Part shown: positions 3,696 to 39,568 of the stretch, in pieces | Position numbering within the stretch: position 1 is the stretch's first letter | How the letters are laid out: the number at the start of each line of letters is the position of its first letter | IMG/VR virus record: IMGVR_UViG_3300050821_006249 | Span: 1-39,568 of that record | Source: a virus | Direction: 5' to 3' (one strand) | Length of the DNA stretch: 39,568 nucleotides | Made by a program: the position numbers and the translations under genes | Notes under the pieces: generated by a model | Seen by the model: only the letters and a program-made list of their open reading frames with translations | The model's database searches: none | What the model was told of the DNA's origin: nothing

Positions 3696-3902
3696 CTAAA
3701 CCTTCTTTCCTCTTGGTTTAAATTGCTTTTTTTCGGTCTTAGTAAGTGGCTTATCCACTCTTTTATTGAGTGCAATAGATTTGCCAATGTTTTTCGAGCT
3801 TTTATCGCCATATCCATATTCTTTAGCCTTTTTAGTCTTTTTGGCTGCATATTTTGCTGAGCCAGTTGGGTTTTTAACATTCATTTTACGCTGTACTTGC
3901 AT
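3696..3902 (-). CDS. Basic hypothetical protein
   Basis: 68 residues, strongly basic (MQVQRKMNVKNPTGSAKYAA, ends KPRGKKV), with many Lys and few acidic residues. The start follows AAGGAG by 8 bases and overlaps the end of the portal gene by 17 bases. Not recognised; composition suggests nucleic-acid contact. It and the 57-aa protein after it may be minor virion components. Confidence 0.55.
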   Translation of the reverse strand: MQVQRKMNVKNPTGSAKYAAKKTKKAKEYGYGDKSSKNIGKSIALNKRVDKPLTKTEKKQFKPRGKKV

Positions 3903-6000
3903 TGCGATTTTCTCCTTTTGGTCTACGGGCTTCTTTCAGTTTATGATGAGTCTCAATAGCACTCATCATGTGTTGATGTCGTTGGTTGTCCCATGCTAGT
4001 TTCATGTCAACTTTCTTTGAAAATATCTCGGCTTCTGCTTTTAAGCGCTGTACTTCATTAGTATCGCGAGACATAACAGCATCGGATATGACTTTCATTT
4101 CATCTTGTTTCAGTTTAGCCATGTCTTTTGCAAACTGTGCTTGTTCTGATTGTGTACGTTGTTGCAATTTCGCCATTTCAATTTGGTTCTTAATCACATC
4201 TGGATTATTTTCCTGACCTTCTTGCTGTGCTTTTTGTTTCGCTGCTTCCATTTCTTTTAGCCAATCCTCAGCCATGATCTTTAATTGATCTATTCCTCTG
4301 ATTTCGACATTATCAAGCAATATTGGTAACCCTTTCTGGTTCATAAATTGGTCAAATGTTGGTGATACTTTCATTAAACCAATCATTTGATTTAGTGCCC
4401 TAGACTTTTGAATTTGAAAGGAAACACCTGCTTCAACCTTTACATTAAGTATGTTCGAATCGTAATCAATTGAAGGTGCGCCAGGTTGATTGATCTTTAC
4501 ATAGGATTTTTTACCATCAATTCCCATCACAGGAATACTACGAGGCGTGGTGACATATTTTGGAAATAGGTCTACATAGACTTCAGCTACTCTATTTAGT
4601 CCTTGTAGATAACCAACAATATATGGCATCGCAGCAGAATTGGATTGCGTTGCACCTTCTACGATAGCAATTCCTGATAATTGATTGTCATTTATTCCTA
4701 ATGAAGCATCATATGACCCTAGAATATTTTGAATAAGTGAATCAGTACTTGAAAAAGTTTGCATCAATTCAGGAGGCGCTGGAACGCGTTGTACTTCTCG
4801 AATTGGATTAGGAATAGGTTGATTAGGGTCTTGTTCAAAGAACGCATTAAATACCATATTGGATGGTCTTTGCTGGTTCTTATAGGCAGCTAGGAAATCT
4901 TCTTCTTTTGGCAATGCTTCTTTTGCAATAATAAATTTACTTTGAACGGTATTTTCGATCTCATTAGCTACACAAATACCAGCATAGTTCTTAAGCCTTT
5001 GCGCGCCTTTTGCCTGATAAGTATAAGGACGGGTAAATTGCCTTACATTACCATTCTTAGGAGTCTTTATCATCACAGAATTGCCATCAACAAAGATCAA
5101 TGGAAAGTGTGAGTAATCGGTCTCTTCATACTCTAAGACTTCATCAAGCATACAACGGTAACGGCATATTTTTTCTATTTCAGTCCAGCGCGGTTTACCT
5201 TTCATTACTGGTGGTGGGACAAAATCTTGCCACTCATCAACCATTTTTTTATATTCTTCCATGGTCATAGACTTACCATCTGGAAGTTGTACTATTTTTA
5301 CTCTCTTCTTTTTCTTTTCATAATAATCAACTAATAGAAGTGTTTCAGTATTGTCATTCATGTATGACCAATTAAAACCAGCAAATTGCCGATTAAAATT
5401 GACATTTTTTAATGAAACATCAGGGTATTTTTCTTCGAAATCTTCTTTAGTGTAAGGAAATAACTCAAAACAAAAACGACCATCTCCCTTATGAGAATAA
5501 CGTGCAGTTGTATCAAAACCACATAATGTGGGGTCAAATACTCGGTCAATATTGATGACCTGATTAAAAGACATAGGATTTGCATAGTCAGTGTATACTT
5601 TAAATACACTAAAGCCACCGCTAAGGATGTCTCTATAAACTTGGTAACGGGTATGGTGGTTTTTAGAATCAAAAAGAGCATGTCTTAAATGCGCTTCGAC
5701 TAACTTAATCATCTGAGGATCAGCTAGACTTTCATCTTCTGCGGATACTTCTATCCCTGGTTCTTGCTTAGAGAACTCTCCCAACATGCGGGAGATATAA
5801 GGTTCAGTGATATTAAACTCAAGACTAGGTTTTCCTTGTTCATCGAGTAAGCTAATATCGTCAGCAGTAAGCGAGGAATCGTACGTAAATCGCACGAATT
5901 CATTGAAACGGTCATAGTTTGGTTTAAATGACTCGTAGGTATTTTTAACATTCTTTTTAATGCGCTCAAGCTGGTCTTGATGCGTCTTAGCTACGTCCAT
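3886..6000 (-). CDS. Portal protein, P22-like
   Basis: 704 residues, close to P22 gp1 (725). It would form the dodecameric ring at the head vertex through which DNA is packaged and to which the tail binds. The order matches the family: helical N-terminus, a large mixed central domain with the LLVDYYEKKKKRVKI segment near residue 222, and a long Gln/Lys-rich helical C-terminus (about residues 580-700) corresponding to the barrel. The gene sits directly after the large terminase (18 bases). The start has AAGGAAG 8 bases upstream. No other portal candidate exists in the window. Confidence 0.88.
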   Translation of the reverse strand: MDVAKTHQDQLERIKKNVKNTYESFKPNYDRFNEFVRFTYDSSLTADDISLLDEQGKPSLEFNITEPYISRMLGEFSKQEPGIEVSAEDESLADPQMIKLVEAHLRHALFDSKNHHTRYQVYRDILSGGFSVFKVYTDYANPMSFNQVINIDRVFDPTLCGFDTTARYSHKGDGRFCFELFPYTKEDFEEKYPDVSLKNVNFNRQFAGFNWSYMNDNTETLLLVDYYEKKKKRVKIVQLPDGKSMTMEEYKKMVDEWQDFVPPPVMKGKPRWTEIEKICRYRCMLDEVLEYEETDYSHFPLIFVDGNSVMIKTPKNGNVRQFTRPYTYQAKGAQRLKNYAGICVANEIENTVQSKFIIAKEALPKEEDFLAAYKNQQRPSNMVFNAFFEQDPNQPIPNPIREVQRVPAPPELMQTFSSTDSLIQNILGSYDASLGINDNQLSGIAIVEGATQSNSAAMPYIVGYLQGLNRVAEVYVDLFPKYVTTPRSIPVMGIDGKKSYVKINQPGAPSIDYDSNILNVKVEAGVSFQIQKSRALNQMIGLMKVSPTFDQFMNQKGLPILLDNVEIRGIDQLKIMAEDWLKEMEAAKQKAQQEGQENNPDVIKNQIEMAKLQQRTQSEQAQFAKDMAKLKQDEMKVISDAVMSRDTNEVQRLKAEAEIFSKKVDMKLAWDNQRHQHMMSAIETHHKLKEARRPKGENRNASTA

Positions 6001-8611: not shown

Positions 8612-8732
8612 GATTCTCCAACATTTCATTTAATACTTTCGTAAACTCATGCGATGGGTCTTTTTGATTAGATAGTAATTTCTGATAAAAATCTGAGATA
8701 ACATTCTCAAATTCAGTGTCTTTTTCAGGCAT
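8601..8732 (-). CDS. Small acidic hypothetical protein
   Basis: 43 residues beginning MPEKDTEFENVISDFYQKLL and ending in ENHDD; predicted helical. Its ATG overlaps the stop of the 340-aa gene as TAATG, and a GGAG lies about 12 bases upstream. Not recognised. Confidence 0.55.
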   Translation of the reverse strand: MPEKDTEFENVISDFYQKLLSNQKDPSHEFTKVLNEMLENHDD

Positions 8733-9754
8733 TATGGAAAGCTCCTATAGTTCCAATGCTCTATTGCTCTTTCTTTACTATCTCTTTCACCACTATCTGA
8801 ACCACACTTTGGACATCTAATATAATAAGAATAATCATGCATTGGATTTTGAGTAATATAACAATCCTCACACCGACAGAACGGACAAGGCAGCAGTTTT
8901 GGTTCTTTATCTTTCTCTAAATTTTTTAATACTATTTCAGACATCCATTTGAAAAATGGTTTTTGCTCACTTTTATAAAATTTTTCCTTTTTAACTAGCT
9001 TTTTTAGATGCTTAACGTTTATATTTACATCATCTACAGTGGCAATTGTTGTACCATGTTCCATCACTGTAATTTTATTAATAGTTCCTTTGAACCCATT
9101 TAAATATCTTAATTCTTCACAATCGCAATTAGATTGCTTGAAGATAACACGATCTCCCACCTTAAACTCAATCTTTTTCTTAACTAACTTTTTAAGGTGA
9201 TCGGTATTTATAATAAATGCTTCCAGTTTTGCAAATCCTGAATGCCAATCATCAATTAAAACTTCTGCTAATTCTCCTTTATGAGTTAAATCTACTATAC
9301 GTCCTTTTTTTCCTATCATAGAACCACCTTTGAGGATAACTCTATCATTGATATTGAACTGAGGTTTTTTCTTTACTAGCTTTTTTACATACTGACATTT
9401 AGATTTTCGATAATTAATGGGAAAAAATCCATAATGTCCTTCATCGAACTCCACATAATAGTCTTGACCGTGATAATTATTATGCAAAATAGTACCTTTC
9501 TGTTTTTTACCATCTATTTGAATAACACACCTATCGCCCACTTCAAATTTAATAGGCTTCTTCACAAGCTTTCGGCATTGTTGTGAATGTATCCATTCCT
9601 CATGTGAAGATATTCCACGAAAATTATCAAACCTTATTTTCAATAAAATTGTATCTTTTTGAGAAGCGCCATCTTCTACAACTTTTCCTCTCAATGGTTC
9701 ATTAGACATAAATGAAGCATAAACATTAACTCTATCCCCTATTTTGAAATACAT
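8732..9754 (-). CDS. Four tandem KOW/SH3-like repeats fused to a Lar-like zinc ribbon
   Basis: 340 residues. Four units of about 63 residues (1-66, 67-129, 130-193, 194-256) each begin with a [FK].[IV][GN]DRV motif, continue as beta strands, and end in (K/R)KLVKK. This is the pattern of small SH3-like barrels (KOW or Mib-herc2-like). After a linker, residues 285-340 form a zinc ribbon with Cys290, Cys293, Cys314 and Cys317 followed by AIEHWNYRS, the ending of Lar (restriction alleviation) proteins. I know no described protein with this architecture. Binding of nucleic acid or a host enzyme is inference. TAATG coupling on both sides. Confidence 0.7.
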   Translation of the reverse strand: MYFKIGDRVNVYASFMSNEPLRGKVVEDGASQKDTILLKIRFDNFRGISSHEEWIHSQQCRKLVKKPIKFEVGDRCVIQIDGKKQKGTILHNNYHGQDYYVEFDEGHYGFFPINYRKSKCQYVKKLVKKKPQFNINDRVILKGGSMIGKKGRIVDLTHKGELAEVLIDDWHSGFAKLEAFIINTDHLKKLVKKKIEFKVGDRVIFKQSNCDCEELRYLNGFKGTINKITVMEHGTTIATVDDVNINVKHLKKLVKKEKFYKSEQKPFFKWMSEIVLKNLEKDKEPKLLPCPFCRCEDCYITQNPMHDYSYYIRCPKCGSDSGERDSKERAIEHWNYRSFP

Positions 9755-14154: not shown

Positions 14155-14523
14155 TCACAAATACCCTCTCATATAATCCTGAATGATCTTTACGCATTGC
14201 TGATAGCCGAAACCTACTTCTGCTACATACCCTAATTCACGCATTTTATTTAGCCATTCACTTTGTGAAGTAGTTAGCTTCCCTCCTATTTTCTTTATCT
14301 CAAGCCAAAGACCGGCATATTCATAGATAGGATAAGGGATAAATAAGTCACTAACGCCTTTGCGTAATCCTAGCCGTTTTAGCTTCTTACCGTAGTATAC
14401 CGATCTCTTACCTTCATTGGGGATGTGAATCGCAATGTCTCTAAGCAATGGTTGATAGGCTATCCAGTCCATTAGCGCTAGATGCTCTTGCTCTTCGGTT
14501 GGCATCGTCTTTGTATTTCGCAT
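14155..14523 (-). CDS. VRR-NUC domain nuclease
   Basis: 122 residues from the chosen ATG (AAGG 9 bases upstream; ATGs at 14532 and 14529 are closer to it). A stand-alone PD-(D/E)XK nuclease of the VRR-NUC family: an early Glu in EEQEHLALMDW, HIPNEGKRS, then GVSDLFIPYP, LWLEIKKIGGKLTTSQ with the E-x-K pair, and the conserved Gln and YGY/VGFGY end. Such proteins act on DNA junctions or flaps and often sit beside phage replication genes, as here. Confidence 0.82.
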   Translation of the reverse strand: MRNTKTMPTEEQEHLALMDWIAYQPLLRDIAIHIPNEGKRSVYYGKKLKRLGLRKGVSDLFIPYPIYEYAGLWLEIKKIGGKLTTSQSEWLNKMRELGYVAEVGFGYQQCVKIIQDYMRGYL

Positions 14524-14620
14524 TGACATCATCCTTGATATTATAGCTATAAAGTGATTTCAGTAATTCTAGTGCTTCTTCCCTGTCTGCGAGATTGACA
14601 GTTTTTCTTCTATGTTCCAT
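14441..14620 (-). CDS. Small hypothetical protein overlapping two genes
   Basis: 59 residues from the ATG at 14620: MEHRRKTVNLADREEALELL, then a polar end rich in Asp, Ala and Ser. It overlaps the upstream gene by 11 bases and the nuclease gene by about 80. The frame extends back to 14683 with no better site. The large overlap makes it less certain than its neighbours. Confidence 0.4.
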   Translation of the reverse strand: MEHRRKTVNLADREEALELLKSLYSYNIKDDVNAKYKDDANRRARASSANGLDSLSTIA

Positions 14621-14990
14621 GTAGAACGTTCCCGTGGTAACCCTGTAATTTTTTATATATATCTCCCAGCGCTGCCTTGGCAACTTCTGGATTGCCTTTT
14701 TCTTGCTGAGCGGTGTAATTGATATGAGGTACTAAATTTTCCTTAGCATAGCGCCAGAACTCTATTTGATGGGGTGGTATCGCTGCTGGGTCTTGCGCTG
14801 CACGTTTGAGGTATTTGAGGGTATTTCGAATTTGATCGTAGGTAAGGCCATCTAAGGCACTTTGCCATGCTGCTTTGGAAAAAACGATTGCATGTGGTTT
14901 TTCTAGGTTCTTAGTCCACCTTTCGCCGTAGAATTCAGCCATACAGATAAAAAGCTTATCTACCCAATCCATTGGTATATCGTTTGCCAT
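14610..14990 (-). CDS. Putative replication protein P-like (helicase loader type)
   Basis: 126 residues. The pattern VDKLFICMAEFYGERWTKNL, AWQSALDGLTYDQIRNTLKY and AIPPHQIEFWRYAKE matches phage replication proteins of the lambda P-like group (F..M.. .YG..W, then W...L.GLT..QI..aL, then PP....F...C/A). In other phages these bring the host helicase to the origin. Location next to the initiator region agrees. Family call is from pattern memory. Confidence 0.58.
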   Translation of the reverse strand: MANDIPMDWVDKLFICMAEFYGERWTKNLEKPHAIVFSKAAWQSALDGLTYDQIRNTLKYLKRAAQDPAAIPPHQIEFWRYAKENLVPHINYTAQQEKGNPEVAKAALGDIYKKLQGYHGNVLHGT

Positions 14991-15097: not shown

Positions 15098-15343
15098 CTA
15101 TCTATTTTTTAGATTATGAAGAGATTCACGATGCGTTTTCATGGCTTCATCAAAAATTCTCTGTTTATCTTCCTGCTTTATTATTTGTAGCGCAGCAGTA
15201 GTACAAGTATATTTCATAAAATCAGAAATAGATTGGTCACATAAATTAGCGGCTCTTTCTATTAAAGCTTTATTAGCTTTACCTAATCCTACTTCTACTA
15301 TTTCTATTCGTTTGTCTTTTTTCATAGTTTTTAGATTATACAT
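15098..15343 (-). CDS. Ribbon-helix-helix antitoxin-like protein (DUF1778-type)
   Basis: 81 residues. KANKALIERAANLCDQSISD FMK-type spacing (residues 22-45) resembles the DUF1778/TacA antitoxin core, where a ribbon-helix-helix is followed by a helical tail that would block a GNAT toxin. No GNAT toxin gene follows; the next gene is the replication P-like one. AGGAAAG precedes the ATG at 15343; the ATG at 15325 is an alternative. It could act as a regulator of the replicon. Confidence 0.55.
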   Translation of the reverse strand: MYNLKTMKKDKRIEIVEVGLGKANKALIERAANLCDQSISDFMKYTCTTAALQIIKQEDKQRIFDEAMKTHRESLHNLKNR

Positions 15344-15408
15344 AAAAAAAGCTCTTTCCTATATCTAGTAATAATCTTTTAGTTATCTCTTAGTGCTTTA
15401 GAAGGGTG

Positions 15409-15583
15409 ACTTATTAGGGTAAGTGTGAACACTTATTTTGGAATAACTTGTGGATAACGTAATTTCGATAAAAACAGTAAATCTTCTAGGAAAAATAAAG
15501 AGATATTTGATTTAATTTTATACAGAATTTTGCAGTAGACAAAAGGAGGGCGTGGGGGTTTACCCTAGATTTAAAAATTAGGC
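15409..15583. other. Putative replication origin downstream of repA
   Basis: Non-coding region just beyond the repA stop. It holds a perfect DnaA box (TTATCCACA on the minus strand) at 15449-15457, the palindrome AAGTGTGAACACTT at 15421-15434, an inverted pair AGGGTAA (about 15415-15421) and TTACCCT (15558-15564), and an A/T-rich stretch (15460-15535). In IncFII-type plasmids oriR lies downstream of repA, begins with a DnaA box and is bound by cis-acting RepA. The arrangement matches; origin activity is inference. No tandem iterons were seen. Confidence 0.6.
15449..15457 (-). promoter_or_regulatory. Consensus DnaA box
   Basis: Reads TTATCCACA on the minus strand, the E. coli DnaA box consensus, about 127 bases beyond the repA stop in a non-coding region. 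Confidence 0.65.
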
Positions 15584-16546
15584 TTAAGATGGAAGAGGGC
15601 GCTTGATAACCAGTGGTTCTTGGCATGTTAAACGAGGGTCATTCTTTATTCTGTGTAGCTCGGCGTCCGATAGCATTTTATGGCGCATGCGCTCGATTGG
15701 TTTATTAGGTGCCTTATAAGCTTTATAGGAGGGTTTCATTTTACTGAATAGATCGGCTATTTCATTGGTTGCTGTTGCATGAGCTTTTCGTTGTTCTTTT
15801 GATCTAATAGGCTTAGGGGTATGTTGTCGTAGCCTTTGCATGTATCTATCTCGCAATTCCTGATCTCGATCATGTATCTCTTTAGCCTTGGCGCGTCCTT
15901 TCAGAAATTCCTCTTCTAGCCCTAGCATCGTGAATATTTTAGGGGTTAGACGAATAATCATTTTAACTGTTTTGTTATGTTCATTTACTATTTTATCGAC
16001 GACACAAATATCCTGGGCTTTTAATATGGCTATCATGCGTTTCTGGCGCCAGGGGGTTAATCTAGTGGCATTTCTTAGGTTAGTGTAATCGTGGTACACC
16101 GTTTCGTTACGGTTGTTGACCATCCCATAGGCCATAGTATAGACGTTGAGTCCATAGATAAGAGCATGGAGAGTAAGCGATAAAGCTCCTTCAACAGCTT
16201 CTGATCGTCTTTTTCGGCTACGTTTATGATTTTGATTACAGAATAAGGGGCGCAGTCCTGGGTATAGCTGCATATCGTTGCGGAAATCAATGGCATCGGA
16301 CAATCGGCGCCGGCTTTCTGCAATGATATAAGGTTGTCTTTTAGACGTTTTATGAAAGATGGGCTTTCGCAAGTTATTTTTATCATGCCCACATCGATTT
16401 CCTTTCGATAAATTTTCTCTTTTTCCCTCTTGCATTGTAAGACAAATGCTATTATCATTCTTCCTGTTGTTAAATTTTAAGTGACCGCTTGTTATGTTCC
16501 CGTGCAAGGAGTTGACATTACAAGCGGGTTCCATCCCGATTTTCAT
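15584..16546 (-). CDS. repA: Plasmid-type replication initiator, RepA (IncFII-like)
   Basis: 320 residues. A basic N-terminus is followed by a core with KRSRKRRSEAVEGALSLTLH (109-128), winged-helix-like segments (TRLTPWRQKRMIAILKAQDI, 161-180; KMIIRLTPKIFTMLGL) and a long charged helical tail with many Arg. Order and spacing resemble the IncFII RepA proteins (R..rAi.aLlqgl.....T...L.ItRatRal..L...Gli....t..iTf...f...l). The start is an ATGA overlap with a 12-codon leader, and a DnaA-box region lies downstream: both are features of IncFII-type control. Residues 1-60 look unlike the family, so a later start is possible. Confidence 0.6.
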   Translation of the reverse strand: MKIGMEPACNVNSLHGNITSGHLKFNNRKNDNSICLTMQEGKRENLSKGNRCGHDKNNLRKPIFHKTSKRQPYIIAESRRRLSDAIDFRNDMQLYPGLRPLFCNQNHKRSRKRRSEAVEGALSLTLHALIYGLNVYTMAYGMVNNRNETVYHDYTNLRNATRLTPWRQKRMIAILKAQDICVVDKIVNEHNKTVKMIIRLTPKIFTMLGLEEEFLKGRAKAKEIHDRDQELRDRYMQRLRQHTPKPIRSKEQRKAHATATNEIADLFSKMKPSYKAYKAPNKPIERMRHKMLSDAELHRIKNDPRLTCQEPLVIKRPLPS

Positions 16547-16581
16547 AGATTATCTCTTTTCGTGGCTATCCGTAGCCGCAT
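16543..16581 (-). CDS. Twelve-residue repA leader peptide (tap-like)
   Basis: ATG at 16581 gives MRLRIATKRDNL and a TGA that overlaps the repA ATG as ATGA. A hairpin GGCTA/TAGCC with a 4-base loop (16564-16577) lies within it, ahead of the weak repA ribosome site AGAGAT. In IncFII plasmids translation of the short tap frame opens a structure over the repA start and its stop overlaps repA in the same way. The leader's own ribosome site is weak. Confidence 0.5.
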   Translation of the reverse strand: MRLRIATKRDNL

Positions 16582-16602
16582 CTTTTTAAGTTAATAATTC
16601 AT

Positions 16603-16679
16603 CGTAACAAGTTGGATTATCCAACCGGCTGAAAGGTTCTTTTAAGACCTCTCTATACGCCTTATAGAAGGTTGTTACG
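16603..16679 (-). ncRNA. Cloverleaf-forming repA leader or antisense RNA region
   Basis: Four perfect or near-perfect helices fill 77 bases: closing stem CGTAACAA (16603-16610) with TTGTTACG (16672-16679), hairpin GTTGGAT/ATCCAAC (16611-16625), hairpin AGGTTCT/AGACCT (16634-16650) and hairpin TCTATA/TATAGA (16652-16668). The total length and three arms match a tRNA cloverleaf, but on the minus strand the T-arm position has a 5-base loop ATAAT without the TTC motif. It lies 22 bases upstream of the leader peptide, where copy-number RNAs sit in RepA replicons. It could be transcribed from either strand. Confidence 0.55.
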
Positions 16680-16931
16680 CTCTTCTGGAAGAAAAATACT
16701 GCTCTCTCCCAATAAAAAAATCAATTAGCATATTTTTTGCCTACCTACTTGACTTTTCTATTAGTTTTTCCCAGCACGGCTTTAGAGTATTCACTAAAAT
16801 AATTTAAAGGACACTTCTTGGCTTAGCTTGCCATACTCATGTTTGCGATCCTCAAACAGGTTCGCCGGGAAAGAAAGTAGGGTAGGATAAATAAATAGGG
16901 GTTGCAAGTGGGGAAGAGTGAAATATATGTG
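16680..16931. other. Non-coding spacer between repA leader and regulator gene
   Basis: About 250 bases with no credible reading frame. TTGACT at 16749-16754 on the plus strand is a good -35 but I see no matching -10. GGAGAGAGCAGTATTTTTC on the minus strand could be part of a repA promoter. A short frame on the minus strand (16794-17027) lacks a ribosome site. Confidence 0.5.
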
Positions 16932-16960
16932 TTGTTTATATTTTTTACTTTCTTTACAAT
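16932..16960 (+). promoter_or_regulatory. Regulator promoter overlapped by operator 1
   Basis: TTGTTT (16932-16937) and TACAAT (16955-16960) with a 17-base spacer. The -10 lies inside the palindrome at 16952-16967, so a protein bound there would block RNA polymerase. The regulator gene follows at 16998. Confidence 0.6.
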
Positions 16961-16967
16961 TGTAAAG
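16952..16967. promoter_or_regulatory. Operator 1, 16-bp palindrome
   Basis: CTTTACAATTGTAAAG is fully self-complementary. A near copy, CTTTACATTTGTAAAG, lies at 17233-17248 on the other side of the regulator gene. The two differ only at one central base. Confidence 0.75.
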
Positions 16968-16997: not shown

Positions 16998-17213
16998 GTG
17001 ATAAGCCAAAAAATGCCTTTTAAGCAAAAAAAAATATTCTCATGTCGTCTTAGACCTGAGATTTTTAAGAAAATTAAATCAATTTCTAAAAAAATTAATA
17101 AATCATCGAAGTTTAAATTTTCTCAAGCTGATATAGTAGAATTGTCTATCTGTATGATAGAAAATGAAAAAGTTGATAAATTAATCGGTATTTATACGGA
17201 AAGTTTGCGATGA
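16998..17213 (+). CDS. Ribbon-helix-helix-like transcription regulator
   Basis: 71 residues from the GTG at 16998, which has AGGAAAG 6 bases upstream; the next in-frame ATG is 17013. KKIFSCRLRPEIFKKIKSIS gives a short strand and helix, then SQADIVELSICMIENEKVDK gives a second helix: the layout of a MetJ/Arc/CopG-type DNA-binding dimer. Its gene is bracketed by two copies of one palindromic operator, one over its own promoter and one before the recombination operon, as expected for an autoregulated early-gene repressor. Function is inferred from this arrangement. Confidence 0.6.
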   Translation: MISQKMPFKQKKIFSCRLRPEIFKKIKSISKKINKSSKFKFSQADIVELSICMIENEKVDKLIGIYTESLR

Positions 17214-17232: not shown

Positions 17233-17248
17233 CTTTACATTTGTAAAG
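17233..17248. promoter_or_regulatory. Operator 2, palindrome before the early operon
   Basis: CTTTACATTTGTAAAG, 7-base arms with a 2-base centre, matching operator 1. It includes a possible -35 (TTTACA, 17234-17239) with AACAAT at 17257-17262 17 bases later. Confidence 0.72.
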
Positions 17249-20386: not shown

Positions 20387-20457
20387 AAGAGTGCAGGGTT
20401 TAATTATACCCGTATTACCAGCCGCCGGTATGGTGCATAAAACCGGCAAAGAATCAT

Positions 20458-20530
20458 TGGCACGTAGCAAAGCGGTAATGCAGCACCCTGTTAAGGTGCT
20501 TATGCGTAGGTTCGAGTCCTACCGTGCCAG
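20458..20530 (+). tRNA. tRNA-Asn(GTT)
   Basis: Perfect cloverleaf of 73 bases: acceptor TGGCACG/CGTGCCA with discriminator G, anticodon stem GCACC/GGTGC with loop CTGTTAA (anticodon GTT), T arm GTAGG/CCTAC with loop TTCGAGT. CCA is not encoded. A hairpin GCCGGT/ACCGGC lies just upstream (20424-20447). It would serve the AAT/AAC codons, frequent in this AT-rich genome. Confidence 0.95.
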
Positions 20531-20542
20531 AATAAATTGAAA

Positions 20543-20625
20543 GGATGAGTGGGTGAGGGGTTAAAACCGGCAGACTGTAAATCTGTTCTCCGCGGAGTAC
20601 GCTAGTTCGAATCTAGCCTCATCCA
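20543..20625 (+). tRNA. tRNA-Tyr(GTA)
   Basis: Class II tRNA of 83 bases with acceptor GGATGAG/CTCATCC and discriminator A, anticodon stem CAGA/TCTG with loop CTGTAAA (anticodon GTA), a long variable arm around CTCCGCGGAG, and T arm GCTAG/CTAGC with loop TTCGAAT. CCA is not encoded. It follows tRNA-Asn after 12 bases, the shared spacer AATAAATTGAAA suggesting one transcript. Confidence 0.95.
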
Positions 20626-20744
20626 GAATAAATTATGGTAATAAGTGCGGTTCAATTCCGTATTAGCTACGTTCGAATCGTAGGCTCTGGGCATCGTCTT
20701 AGGGGTTTTAGCGAAATGGTATCCTGCTTATTACCAAGAATTAT

Positions 20745-23684: not shown

Positions 23685-23966
23685 ATGAAAGATGAATTTA
23701 AAGAGTTAACAAAAAAATTAAATAGCAAGCTTGTAGAAACCACTGTTAATTTTATTAAAGAAAATGTTAAAGAAGATAAAGAAATATACTTAAATGATTT
23801 TCTAAATTTAATATTAAGCTCTCATATTTCCTCTATATATAATAATTTATTGCATTTAACAGAAATGTTTGAAGCTCCACAAGAACCTATTGATATTTTA
23901 ATGAATAAAATACTTTTCTCAATAGAAGATTTTGATCTTATTGAATATAAAGGAGATAAACATTAA
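23685..23966 (+). CDS. Small helical paralogue 4
   Basis: 93 residues (MKDEFKELTKKLNSKLVETT onward). Core YLNDFLNLILSSHISSIYNN and acidic end follow the same plan as paralogues 1-3, but it is the most divergent. AGAGGAAA precedes the ATG. Its stop overlaps the RtcB start as TAATG. Confidence 0.58.
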   Translation: MKDEFKELTKKLNSKLVETTVNFIKENVKEDKEIYLNDFLNLILSSHISSIYNNLLHLTEMFEAPQEPIDILMNKILFSIEDFDLIEYKGDKH

Positions 23967-25192
23967 TGCGCGTATTTGAAGGAAAAAATGTCCCAATAAA
24001 AGCTTGGATAGATTATGTTGATATTGAAGATCAAGCTCTTCAACAACTCGTTAATTTATCAAGTATGCCATTTATATATAAGCATGTTGCAGCGATGCCA
24101 GATGTTCACTGGGGAATGGGTGCTACTATCGGAAGCGTTATAGCTACTGAAAAAGCTATTATTCCTGCTGCGGTTGGTGTTGATATTGGTTGCGGCATGA
24201 TGGCTGTTAAAACACCTTTAAATGCTAATGATTTACCAGATAATCTTTTTGATATTCGATCAAAAATAGAAGCTGCCGTTCCTCACGGTAGAACTAATCA
24301 AGGTGGTGATGGTGATAGAGGTGCTTGGCATAATATACATCCATTAGGTGAATTAAGTTTTCTATTGATGAAAGAAGAATACGAATCAATAATAGAAAAA
24401 TATCCTTTATTAAAACCAAAGAAAAACCCTGCTCATCATTTAGGTACGCTTGGGACTGGTAATCATTTTATAGAAATATGTTTAGATCAAAATCAAGATG
24501 TATGGGTAATGCTTCATAGTGGAAGTAGAGGAATTGGTAATAAAATAGGAGTTTTTTTCATTAGTAAGGCAAAAGAAGAAATGCAAAAATACTATATAGA
24601 TAAACATATATCCGATATAGACTTATCTTATCTAGTAGAACATACAGAAATTTTTGATGATTATATAAAAGCTGTTAATTGGGCGCAAAAGTTTGCATTC
24701 GAAAATAGAGTTATAATGATGAGTAATATTATTGGGATTTTATCAGAAAGTTTTCCTGATAAAATTTTTGAATATCATACATTTGAAACAGCAATAAATT
24801 GTCATCACAACTATGTTGAGAAAGAAAGACACTTCGGTAAAAATGTATGGCTTACCCGTAAAGGTGCTGTTAGAGCCAGAAAAGATGATTTAGGTATTAT
24901 ACCTGGTTCCATGGGTGCAAAAAGCTTTATAGTTAGAGGTAAAGGAAATTTAGAAAGTTTTCATTCATGTTCTCATGGAGCGGGTCGTTCAATGGGTCGT
25001 AATGAAGCTAAAAAGCGTTTTACATTAGAAGATCATATAAAAGCCACAGAAGGCGTTGAATGCAGAAAAGATCAAGATGTTATTGATGAAACACCAATGG
25101 CTTATAAAGATATCGATAATGTAATGAAATCTCAAGAGGATTTAGTTGATATTATCTATACATTAAAGCAAGTTGTTTGTATAAAGGGGTAA
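23966..25192 (+). CDS. rtcB: RNA-splicing ligase RtcB
   Basis: 408 residues, exactly the length of E. coli RtcB. Joins 2',3'-cyclic phosphate (or 3'-phosphate) and 5'-OH RNA ends using GTP and Mn2+. Visible motifs: PDVHWGMG (45-52), VDIGCGM with metal-binding Cys76 (72-78), GTGNHFIE with His167, LHSGSRGIG with His184, CHHNYVE (279-285), IIPGSMG, and CSHGAGRSMGR whose His337 matches the guanylylated His of E. coli RtcB. No intein or gap. A plausible job is re-joining tRNAs cut by host anticodon nucleases. Confidence 0.93.
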   Translation: MRVFEGKNVPIKAWIDYVDIEDQALQQLVNLSSMPFIYKHVAAMPDVHWGMGATIGSVIATEKAIIPAAVGVDIGCGMMAVKTPLNANDLPDNLFDIRSKIEAAVPHGRTNQGGDGDRGAWHNIHPLGELSFLLMKEEYESIIEKYPLLKPKKNPAHHLGTLGTGNHFIEICLDQNQDVWVMLHSGSRGIGNKIGVFFISKAKEEMQKYYIDKHISDIDLSYLVEHTEIFDDYIKAVNWAQKFAFENRVIMMSNIIGILSESFPDKIFEYHTFETAINCHHNYVEKERHFGKNVWLTRKGAVRARKDDLGIIPGSMGAKSFIVRGKGNLESFHSCSHGAGRSMGRNEAKKRFTLEDHIKATEGVECRKDQDVIDETPMAYKDIDNVMKSQEDLVDIIYTLKQVVCIKG

Positions 25193-38369: not shown

Positions 38370-39568
38370 TTAACCTTGAGACAATGGGATGATATATCGC
38401 ATTGAATATTCAGGTACGACTGTGGAACCCCACGTTGCATCATAGATTAGACCTGTTTGGTTTTGTCCGAAGAGAGAACCATAAGTTAATCGCAATGAAA
38501 CGCCAGTTTCTGGGTCATATTCATTAGCAGTATCAAAAGGTCTTTGTTCTGGTAATTGAGGTAATGCAACATAGAACGCATCGCCACCTACGATCAGACC
38601 TGCACGATGGGATGGCAAACCTTTGACTTGCATACCAGCTTGTATAGTTTGATTTAGGTTCTGAGAATTACCACCAGCCCAATTTAATGGAGGAAAAATA
38701 CTAATCGTAACATTTCCAGCATTATCAGAAGCAGCATTTGCAGTCGCTCTAAATTGAACGTGATTAGCGCTGACAAAGTGACCGATAAATGTCAGATAAC
38801 GCATATTAGCGAAACCTGTTACACCATCTTGGAAGCTAAATAAGTCCCCAGAAAGAACAGCATTAGGGTCATTATGAACAGATGCGCCGCTAAAAGTGAT
38901 CTGAGTAACATTCTGGCCTGTTGGGTCATTAGTACTTACTACAGTCAAAGTATCTGCATTGTTTCCAGTATCACCTGAAATATGAATTGGCAATAAGTTA
39001 GATTGGTAATAGCTAACTAAAGGCGTACCAAAGTCACCTACTTCCCAAGACATTGCGATATCATCGTTTCTGCGTGGAACAAATTGATTTAAACCACTAC
39101 CAACGATTCCAGGGATAACAGTATCTGGTAGATAGATTTTCATACCAGTAGATACGGCACCGTAGTTTTTGAATAACATGACTGACTGTGCTAACTGTTG
39201 GTAACTAGTCAATGCAGTCACACCATCACCGAAAAATCGATATGGGCCGGATTCCGTATGCAATGCGCCAGTAGGGAAAGTTTGACCGTTTTGGTCAATT
39301 CCCATCACAGGAACAGAGCTAGTTGCATTCAAAGCAATATTACCTTCAATGTTATTAGCTAGTTCTTCCATGAAGGACTTACCAAAAACACGCATGTAAT
39401 CTTCTTCACCTTTCTCTAAGTTGAAGATACGTTGCTGTGAAGTAACGGTGTAGGAACTATTACCTGCTTGATCGCAAGTAAGTGTCTGCACACGTTGGTC
39501 TGCTGGTTGGAAAGCTGCAACTAGACCATTTGTGGTAACTGCACGAGGCGGAAGGTCGAAAGTGACAC
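38370..39568 (-). CDS. Major capsid (coat) protein, P22-like, main part
   Basis: Main part of the 448-aa coat protein that forms the icosahedral shell; the first 82 codons lie at 1-245 across the circular join, and 39472-39568 duplicates 1-97. The assignment rests on length, on position between scaffold and gp4-like genes, and on a central segment rich in small and beta-type residues (a run beginning TLTVVSTNDPTGQN) like the P22 coat family's inserted domain. A strong hairpin terminator follows the stop codon, consistent with high expression. I see no other candidate for coat protein in the window. Family identity is by gene order and composition, not alignment. Confidence 0.82.
   Translation of the reverse strand, partial: VTFDLPPRAVTTNGLVAAFQPADQRVQTLTCDQAGNSSYTVTSQQRIFNLEKGEEDYMRVFGKSFMEELANNIEGNIALNATSSVPVMGIDQNGQTFPTGALHTESGPYRFFGDGVTALTSYQQLAQSVMLFKNYGAVSTGMKIYLPDTVIPGIVGSGLNQFVPRRNDDIAMSWEVGDFGTPLVSYYQSNLLPIHISGDTGNNADTLTVVSTNDPTGQNVTQITFSGASVHNDPNAVLSGDLFSFQDGVTGFANMRYLTFIGHFVSANHVQFRATANAASDNAGNVTISIFPPLNWAGGNSQNLNQTIQAGMQVKGLPSHRAGLIVGGDAFYVALPQLPEQRPFDTANEYDPETGVSLRLTYGSLFGQNQTGLIYDATWGSTVVPEYSMRYIIPLSQG
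39472..39568. repeat. Right copy of 97-bp terminal direct repeat
   Basis: Exact duplicate of 1-97, lying inside the 5' third of the minus-strand coat protein gene. It should be counted once when the circle is closed. Confidence 0.93.

Follow-up and report, generated by a model that had tools for sequence, protein, structure and literature searches.

P22-type virions classically belong to integrating temperate phages; these phages use headful packaging, and their genomes assemble as circles regardless. In replicons, control of copy number typically involves an elaborate leader. A description of metagenomic phage-plasmids that carry partition genes appeared in 2015 (PMC4490671). Because they have integrases, four Aeromonas phages, 3, 32, 59.1 and Asp37, have been considered likely to be able to lysogenize (PMC5539321), and Aeromonas phage Ahp2, which has an integrase and a ParA-like protein, has been reported as lytic, with no lysogen detected by PCR among ten resistant colonies of one strain (PMC8001559). 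In a limited search of open-licence papers, we found no report of an IncFII-related replicon in a phage with a P22-type virion.

Here, we analyzed a virus record of 39,568 nt (IMG/VR IMGVR_UViG_3300050821_006249; the whole stretch is hereafter called the window), for which a preliminary description had proposed a P22-type phage carrying an IncFII-like plasmid replicon. As judged from its sequence, the window does combine a P22-type phage lacking an integrase with a real plasmid-type theta replicon (Table 1). It is plausible, and in our view rather probable, that this phage is a phage-plasmid, persisting as a free plasmid in its bacterium.

Table 1. Features of the replicon, its surroundings and the virion module in the window
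Feature	Position	Strand	Basis
P22-type portal protein	3886..6000	-	PF16510 E 3.8e-89; phrog_156
VRR-NUC nuclease	14155..14532	-	same neighbourhood in G001/G002
Small helical protein, candidate helicase loader, conserved beside the origin	14610..14990	-	weak phrog_109 P-like loader match, E 0.034
TacA1-like ribbon-helix-helix (RHH) protein, past the origin	15098..15343	-	PF08681 E 9e-6, above cut-off
Origin direct repeats TAAGTG (15430-15435) and TAAGTC (15408-15413), spaced 22 nt	15408..15435	-	sequence and family motif
Perfect DnaA box TTATCCACA, 127 nt past the repA stop	15449..15457	-	sequence
repA-like winged-helix replication initiator, 320 aa	15584..16546	-	ORF, alignment to relatives from plasmids and phages, AlphaFold
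12-codon leader ORF MRLRIATKRDNL, stop TGA overlapping the repA ATG (ATGA)	16543..16581	-	sequence
Intrinsic-terminator-like hairpin and T run, antisense to the repA leader	16562..16589	+	1 found against 1.4 expected from shuffles
Folded leader, a three-way junction with closing stem CGUAACA/UGUUACG	16603..16679	-	z = -2.8 (16595-16690)
Perfect palindrome CTTTACAATTGTAAAG ahead of the 17013 gene	16952..16967		sequence
Small basic protein, RHH-like by eye, divergent from repA	17013..17213	+	no Pfam match
Matching near-palindrome CTTTACATTTGTAAAG after the 17013 gene	17233..17248		sequence
Major coat protein, 448 aa; most of the gene, which continues over the join to position 245	38370..39568	-	phrog_283 major head protein

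Virion module and distribution of its relatives

The assignment to P22-type phages was supported by the portal protein, by an Sf6-type TerS and by the closure protein; the closure and ejection proteins matched phage head-closure and ejection families. It did not extend to the coat as a member of the Pfam P22 coat family, since no match to PF11651 was obtained. Relatives of this coat were present in at least 162 IMG/VR contigs, the near-complete ones being 35-40 kb long, and none occurred in the named-phage and plasmid collections. The coat profile had no match in 369 genomes sampled from the class of P. aquae, in a search that had no positive control. One record of the same coat family (G053, L209; IMG/VR 2651869649), which from the form of its name may be an isolate genome, has bacterial-looking genes at its left end and may reveal the host.

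Among 35 sizeable records surveyed as virion relatives, a tyrosine integrase was found in one, a resolvase-type recombinase in three and neither in 31. RepA was identified in three and ParA above the cut-off in two. The window itself had no tyrosine or resolvase-type recombinase, in agreement with the preliminary description, which had also noted that relatives found only as integrated prophages would speak against a phage-plasmid; the single integrase among 35 records does not show such a pattern. The remaining two records with RepA, G001 and G002, had the virion module, RepA (32-34% identity), the adjacent loader-like gene (52-56%) and the origin in common with the window; in G001, ParA and a basic protein of small size were also encoded upstream of repA.

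The absence of integrase in a closed circle had been taken to indicate a phage-plasmid. Only the first part of that argument holds. The ends of the window are identical over 97 bp and the coat gene is open across the end-to-end join; however, headful phages assemble as circles, and end repeats recurred in 6 of 12 related contigs at a constant 127 bp, with the look of an assembler overlap. Because of these two facts the closed circle is uninformative and was rejected as plasmid evidence; the 97-bp terminal repeat may also be an assembler overlap.

Several other genes of the window were observed. A full-length RtcB RNA ligase (23966-25192, +; PF01139 E 2e-126), also present in the virion relative G054 (54%), could serve in tRNA repair against host nucleases. 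There is a tRNA-Asn/Tyr/Leu cluster (20457-20692), and a lone tRNA-Ile with anticodon AAT (1519-1592, -) lies apart from the other phage tRNAs. A protein with repeated KKLVKK-like segments has a Lar-like restriction-alleviation C-terminus (8732-9754, -).

The RepA-like protein belongs to a widespread plasmid family

The 320-aa protein had no direct match to replication families in Pfam, NCBIfam or PHROG. It did match a Photobacterium plasmid protein, from which a family could be built. The Photobacterium member matched 144 plasmid records, mostly of Pseudomonas and Burkholderia and also of Nitrosococcus, Aeromonas, Vibrio and others, and further members were found in phages. The GN-CGH and R..RSE..E stretches were invariant across 14 aligned members. 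Public records name two members RepA and label most of the family 'hypothetical protein'; recognizing the family would therefore help to flag overlooked phage-plasmids. The window protein is a member of this broad initiator family.

Structural comparison was less specific. The AlphaFold model had a confident core (residues ~70-245) with a helix-turn-helix and a wing, and the fold search returned generic winged helices, which is undiagnostic because proteins of MarR type and of RNA polymerase III equalled the initiator entries 4pql and 4pt7 (Z ~7.5). The top viral fold match was a nameless protein (A0A219YAM3, E 2e-8). Searching the sequences of solved structures with the RepA and IncFII profiles gave no meaningful match, and a broad RepA pattern scan was unproductive, the family alignment being too divergent.

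In the phylogenetic tree, which is small and divergent and whose root was untested, the three P22-type RepAs formed a clade (support 0.998) adjacent to RepAs of Vibrionaceae (0.98), of which two are on plasmids and one is on a genome contig. The RepAs of Aeromonas myophages and of the Pseudomonas phage PARCL1pr group were placed in other branches. The tree fits more than one transfer of the family between plasmids and phages, and the occurrence of P22-type, other long-tailed and myophage members in different branches suggests that phages took it up more than once.

Origin, leader and neighbouring genes

The region downstream of repA resembles an origin. Two DnaA boxes were found in the whole window on both strands (0.39 expected), and the TAAGTG and TAAGTC repeats, the latter a variant of the family motif, lie 149 and 171 nt past the repA stop. 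A perfect DnaA box lay behind repA in 8 of 20 family members, and 12 of 20 had pairs of TTAAGT/TAAGTG spaced by 19-24 nt, whereas in 300 shuffles of the whole 20-member set never more than one member had either motif. Thus, the origin motifs are common to plasmid and phage members of the family, far above shuffled sequences.

The short leader ORF ends on the start of repA. This overlap alone is weak evidence because 8 of the 95 ORFs of the window (~8%) have an ATG-started upstream frame ending in NTGA, several of these frames being long ordinary genes. A short leader overlapping repA in this way recurred in plasmids of Photobacterium (L002, TTGA) and Methylocaldum (L105, ATGA), and in a Vibrio plasmid (L108) a CTGA overlap is readable if a CTG start is assumed. 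The leader fold was more stable than most shuffled sequences, only 1 of 200 being as stable. The hairpin antisense to the leader, which on the minus strand reads as a hairpin within the leader ORF, could mark where an antisense RNA ends (its 3' end). Terminator-like sites were at chance frequency, and promoter-like sites did not exceed chance. In summary, the initiator, overlapping leader, folded leader and downstream DnaA box of the preliminary description could all be recovered, at the places and in the order that it gave.

With respect to the neighbouring genes, the loader-like protein was 43% identical in G046, another virion relative, and its structure prediction, made with no alignment, was of low confidence. 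No toxin partner was recognized for the TacA1-like protein. The motif CTTTACAwTTGTAAAG had only two copies in the window, which flank the gene of the small basic protein, and from this arrangement the gene and its palindromes could form an autorepressor or a partition-like site. Neither ParA nor a recognizable CI-type repressor was found in the window.

Possible role of the replicon in the phage life cycle

We propose that this module contains the origin and controls DNA replication in a P22-type phage, probably a temperate one. Translation of RepA would be coupled to the leader peptide, the leader ribosome ending on the repA start codon. Directly past its gene, RepA would bind the TAAGTG repeats, and with host DnaA at the box next to them it would open the origin, from which theta replication would start. 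Loading of the host helicase may be aided by the small protein encoded nearby. The module would stand in for the O-type initiator apparently present in sampled virion relatives, and most likely it would also allow the genome to be maintained as a circular plasmid of low copy number rather than by integration.

Both a virion gene set and a plasmid replication gene, the combination that characterizes a phage-plasmid, are present in the window. Persistence as a plasmid is further favored by the wide occurrence of the family on plasmids, the lack of integrase, a circular plasmid record of A. veronii and ParA in G001, the nearest phage relative, as well as in other RepA phages (Aeromonas phage 3, PARCL1pr, G003, G005, G006 and G007, with a ParA-like protein in Ahp2). 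On the other hand, the window has neither ParA nor a recognized repressor, its TacA1-like protein has no recognized toxin, and the same kind of replicon is also found in phages reported as lytic (Ahp2). No extrachromosomal relative of the virion was present in the plasmid collection or among the 369 sampled genomes, and the source is a metagenomic contig. On balance, we regard the window as likely to be a phage-plasmid or a phage with the equipment of one.

Alternatively, RepA might be an initiator of the lytic phase only, exchanged for O in a phage that has no plasmid stage and is either virulent or integrated in some other way, which we consider possible although doubtful. Four sampled virion relatives had other winged-helix, O-type initiator candidates (by eye), two of them with a loader-like gene, and G046 retained the loader and VRR-NUC neighbours beside a different initiator candidate and an integrase; the window without ParA and Ahp2 without detectable lysogens (PMC8001559) also agree with such a role. 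However, ParA accompanies this RepA in G001, whose virion is of the same type, members of the family occur widely on plasmids, integrases are missing from nearly all virion relatives, and the elaborate leader is of a kind generally known from copy-number control.

Turning back to persistence as a plasmid, we tentatively suggest, as a conjecture that may well prove wrong, that this widespread, uncultivated lineage (at least 162 contigs) consists generally of integrase-free extrachromosomal prophages, one branch of which took a Vibrionaceae-related plasmid replicon in place of the O initiator. If this is true, a single copy-controlled plasmid origin may therefore serve both plasmid upkeep and lytic growth. 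A P22-type virion is now linked to a plasmid-type replicon, which raises the question of whether a plasmid initiator can serve stable inheritance and lytic growth alike.

Relationship to IncFII and IncI replicons

The replicon had been called IncFII-like. The order of its parts and a remote profile homology justify this wording, whereas membership in IncFII was not upheld. When the RepA family profile was aligned with seven IncFII/IncI/IncL-type RepAs (hhalign), a score of 48 (P 7.5e-6) was obtained, compared with 11-19 for 20 column-shuffled controls, 16 for a reversed one and 14-28 for TrfA and O-like proteins; the profile comparison that had been recommended for the 320-aa protein thus revealed remote homology of its family to IncFII RepA. 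This homology rests on the family because the window protein alone was below significance against the IncFII RepA profile. PF02387 (IncFII_repA) had no match in the window at E ≤1 and none in ten relatives at 0.1, which means little because the model barely recognizes real IncFII/IncI RepAs (22-32 bits, with a cut-off of 22.9). On these comparisons, the window RepA is best regarded as a separate family, distant kin of IncFII RepA, that is IncFII-like in architecture and no IncFII member.

The IncFII and IncI (ColIb-P9) plasmid replicons are among the closest known systems. Their leader is coupled to repA, as is proposed for the window, and they resemble it in a RepA with remote profile homology and in a downstream DnaA box at a similar distance past the repA stop (167 nt in the IncI plasmid ColIb-P9, versus 127 nt in the window). 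Unlike ColIb-P9, the window has a RepA of a separate family and virion genes around the replicon. The TTAAGTG repeats are a trait of the RepA family and none were seen in ColIb-P9, whereas the UUGGCGG/CCGCCA leader elements of ColIb-P9 are absent from the window. It is very unlikely that the window acquired a true IncFII replicon from a plasmid of enterobacteria, with an RNA pseudoknot and a CopA/Inc-type antisense RNA as its controls. Its parts do follow the same order, a terminator-like site is present on the antisense strand of the leader, and the UUGGCGG and CCGCCA motifs are kept in the Photobacterium (L002) and Vibrio (L108) plasmid relatives; but the IncI-type pseudoknot elements UUGGCG, CGCCAA, CCGCC and GGCGG are all missing from the window leader, promoter-like sites are no commoner than chance, and PF02387 is silent, although this model scores real IncFII/IncI RepAs only close to its cut-off. 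That the protein is a winged-helix regulator beside coincidental origin-like features is hardly credible: MarR-type proteins fit its fold as well as initiators do, but the origin motifs recur behind the gene across a family with members on many plasmids, two of them annotated as RepA.

Comparison with known phages and phage-related plasmids

The P22-type Pseudoalteromonas phage H6/1 is similar to the window in its portal, Sf6-type TerS, gp10-like closure protein and TerL (51% identical). Unlike H6/1, the window has a plasmid-type replicon, and its coat has no detected sequence relation to the P22-type coat of H6/1, the two being not alignable by hhalign. RepA phages in public records include Aeromonas phages 3, 32, 59.1, Asp37, Ahp2 and AhyVDH1 and Pseudomonas phage PARCL1pr. 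Their RepAs are of the same family as that of the window and are annotated as hypothetical, and DnaA boxes and/or TTAAGT-type repeats lay downstream in all three examples examined. Unlike the window, they comprise myophages and a genome that encodes an HK97-type protease, three of them are placed elsewhere in the tree, and an integrase is present in PARCL1pr, 3, 32, 59.1, Asp37 and Ahp2, with none annotated in the region of AhyVDH1 viewed. Finally, a 38.9-kb A. veronii record (NZ_CP121813) differs from the window in its long-tailed-phage tail tube and tail assembly genes and in a RepA that is only ~21% identical; like the window, it combines a RepA of this family with phage structural genes, here in a circular plasmid record that also carries ParA.
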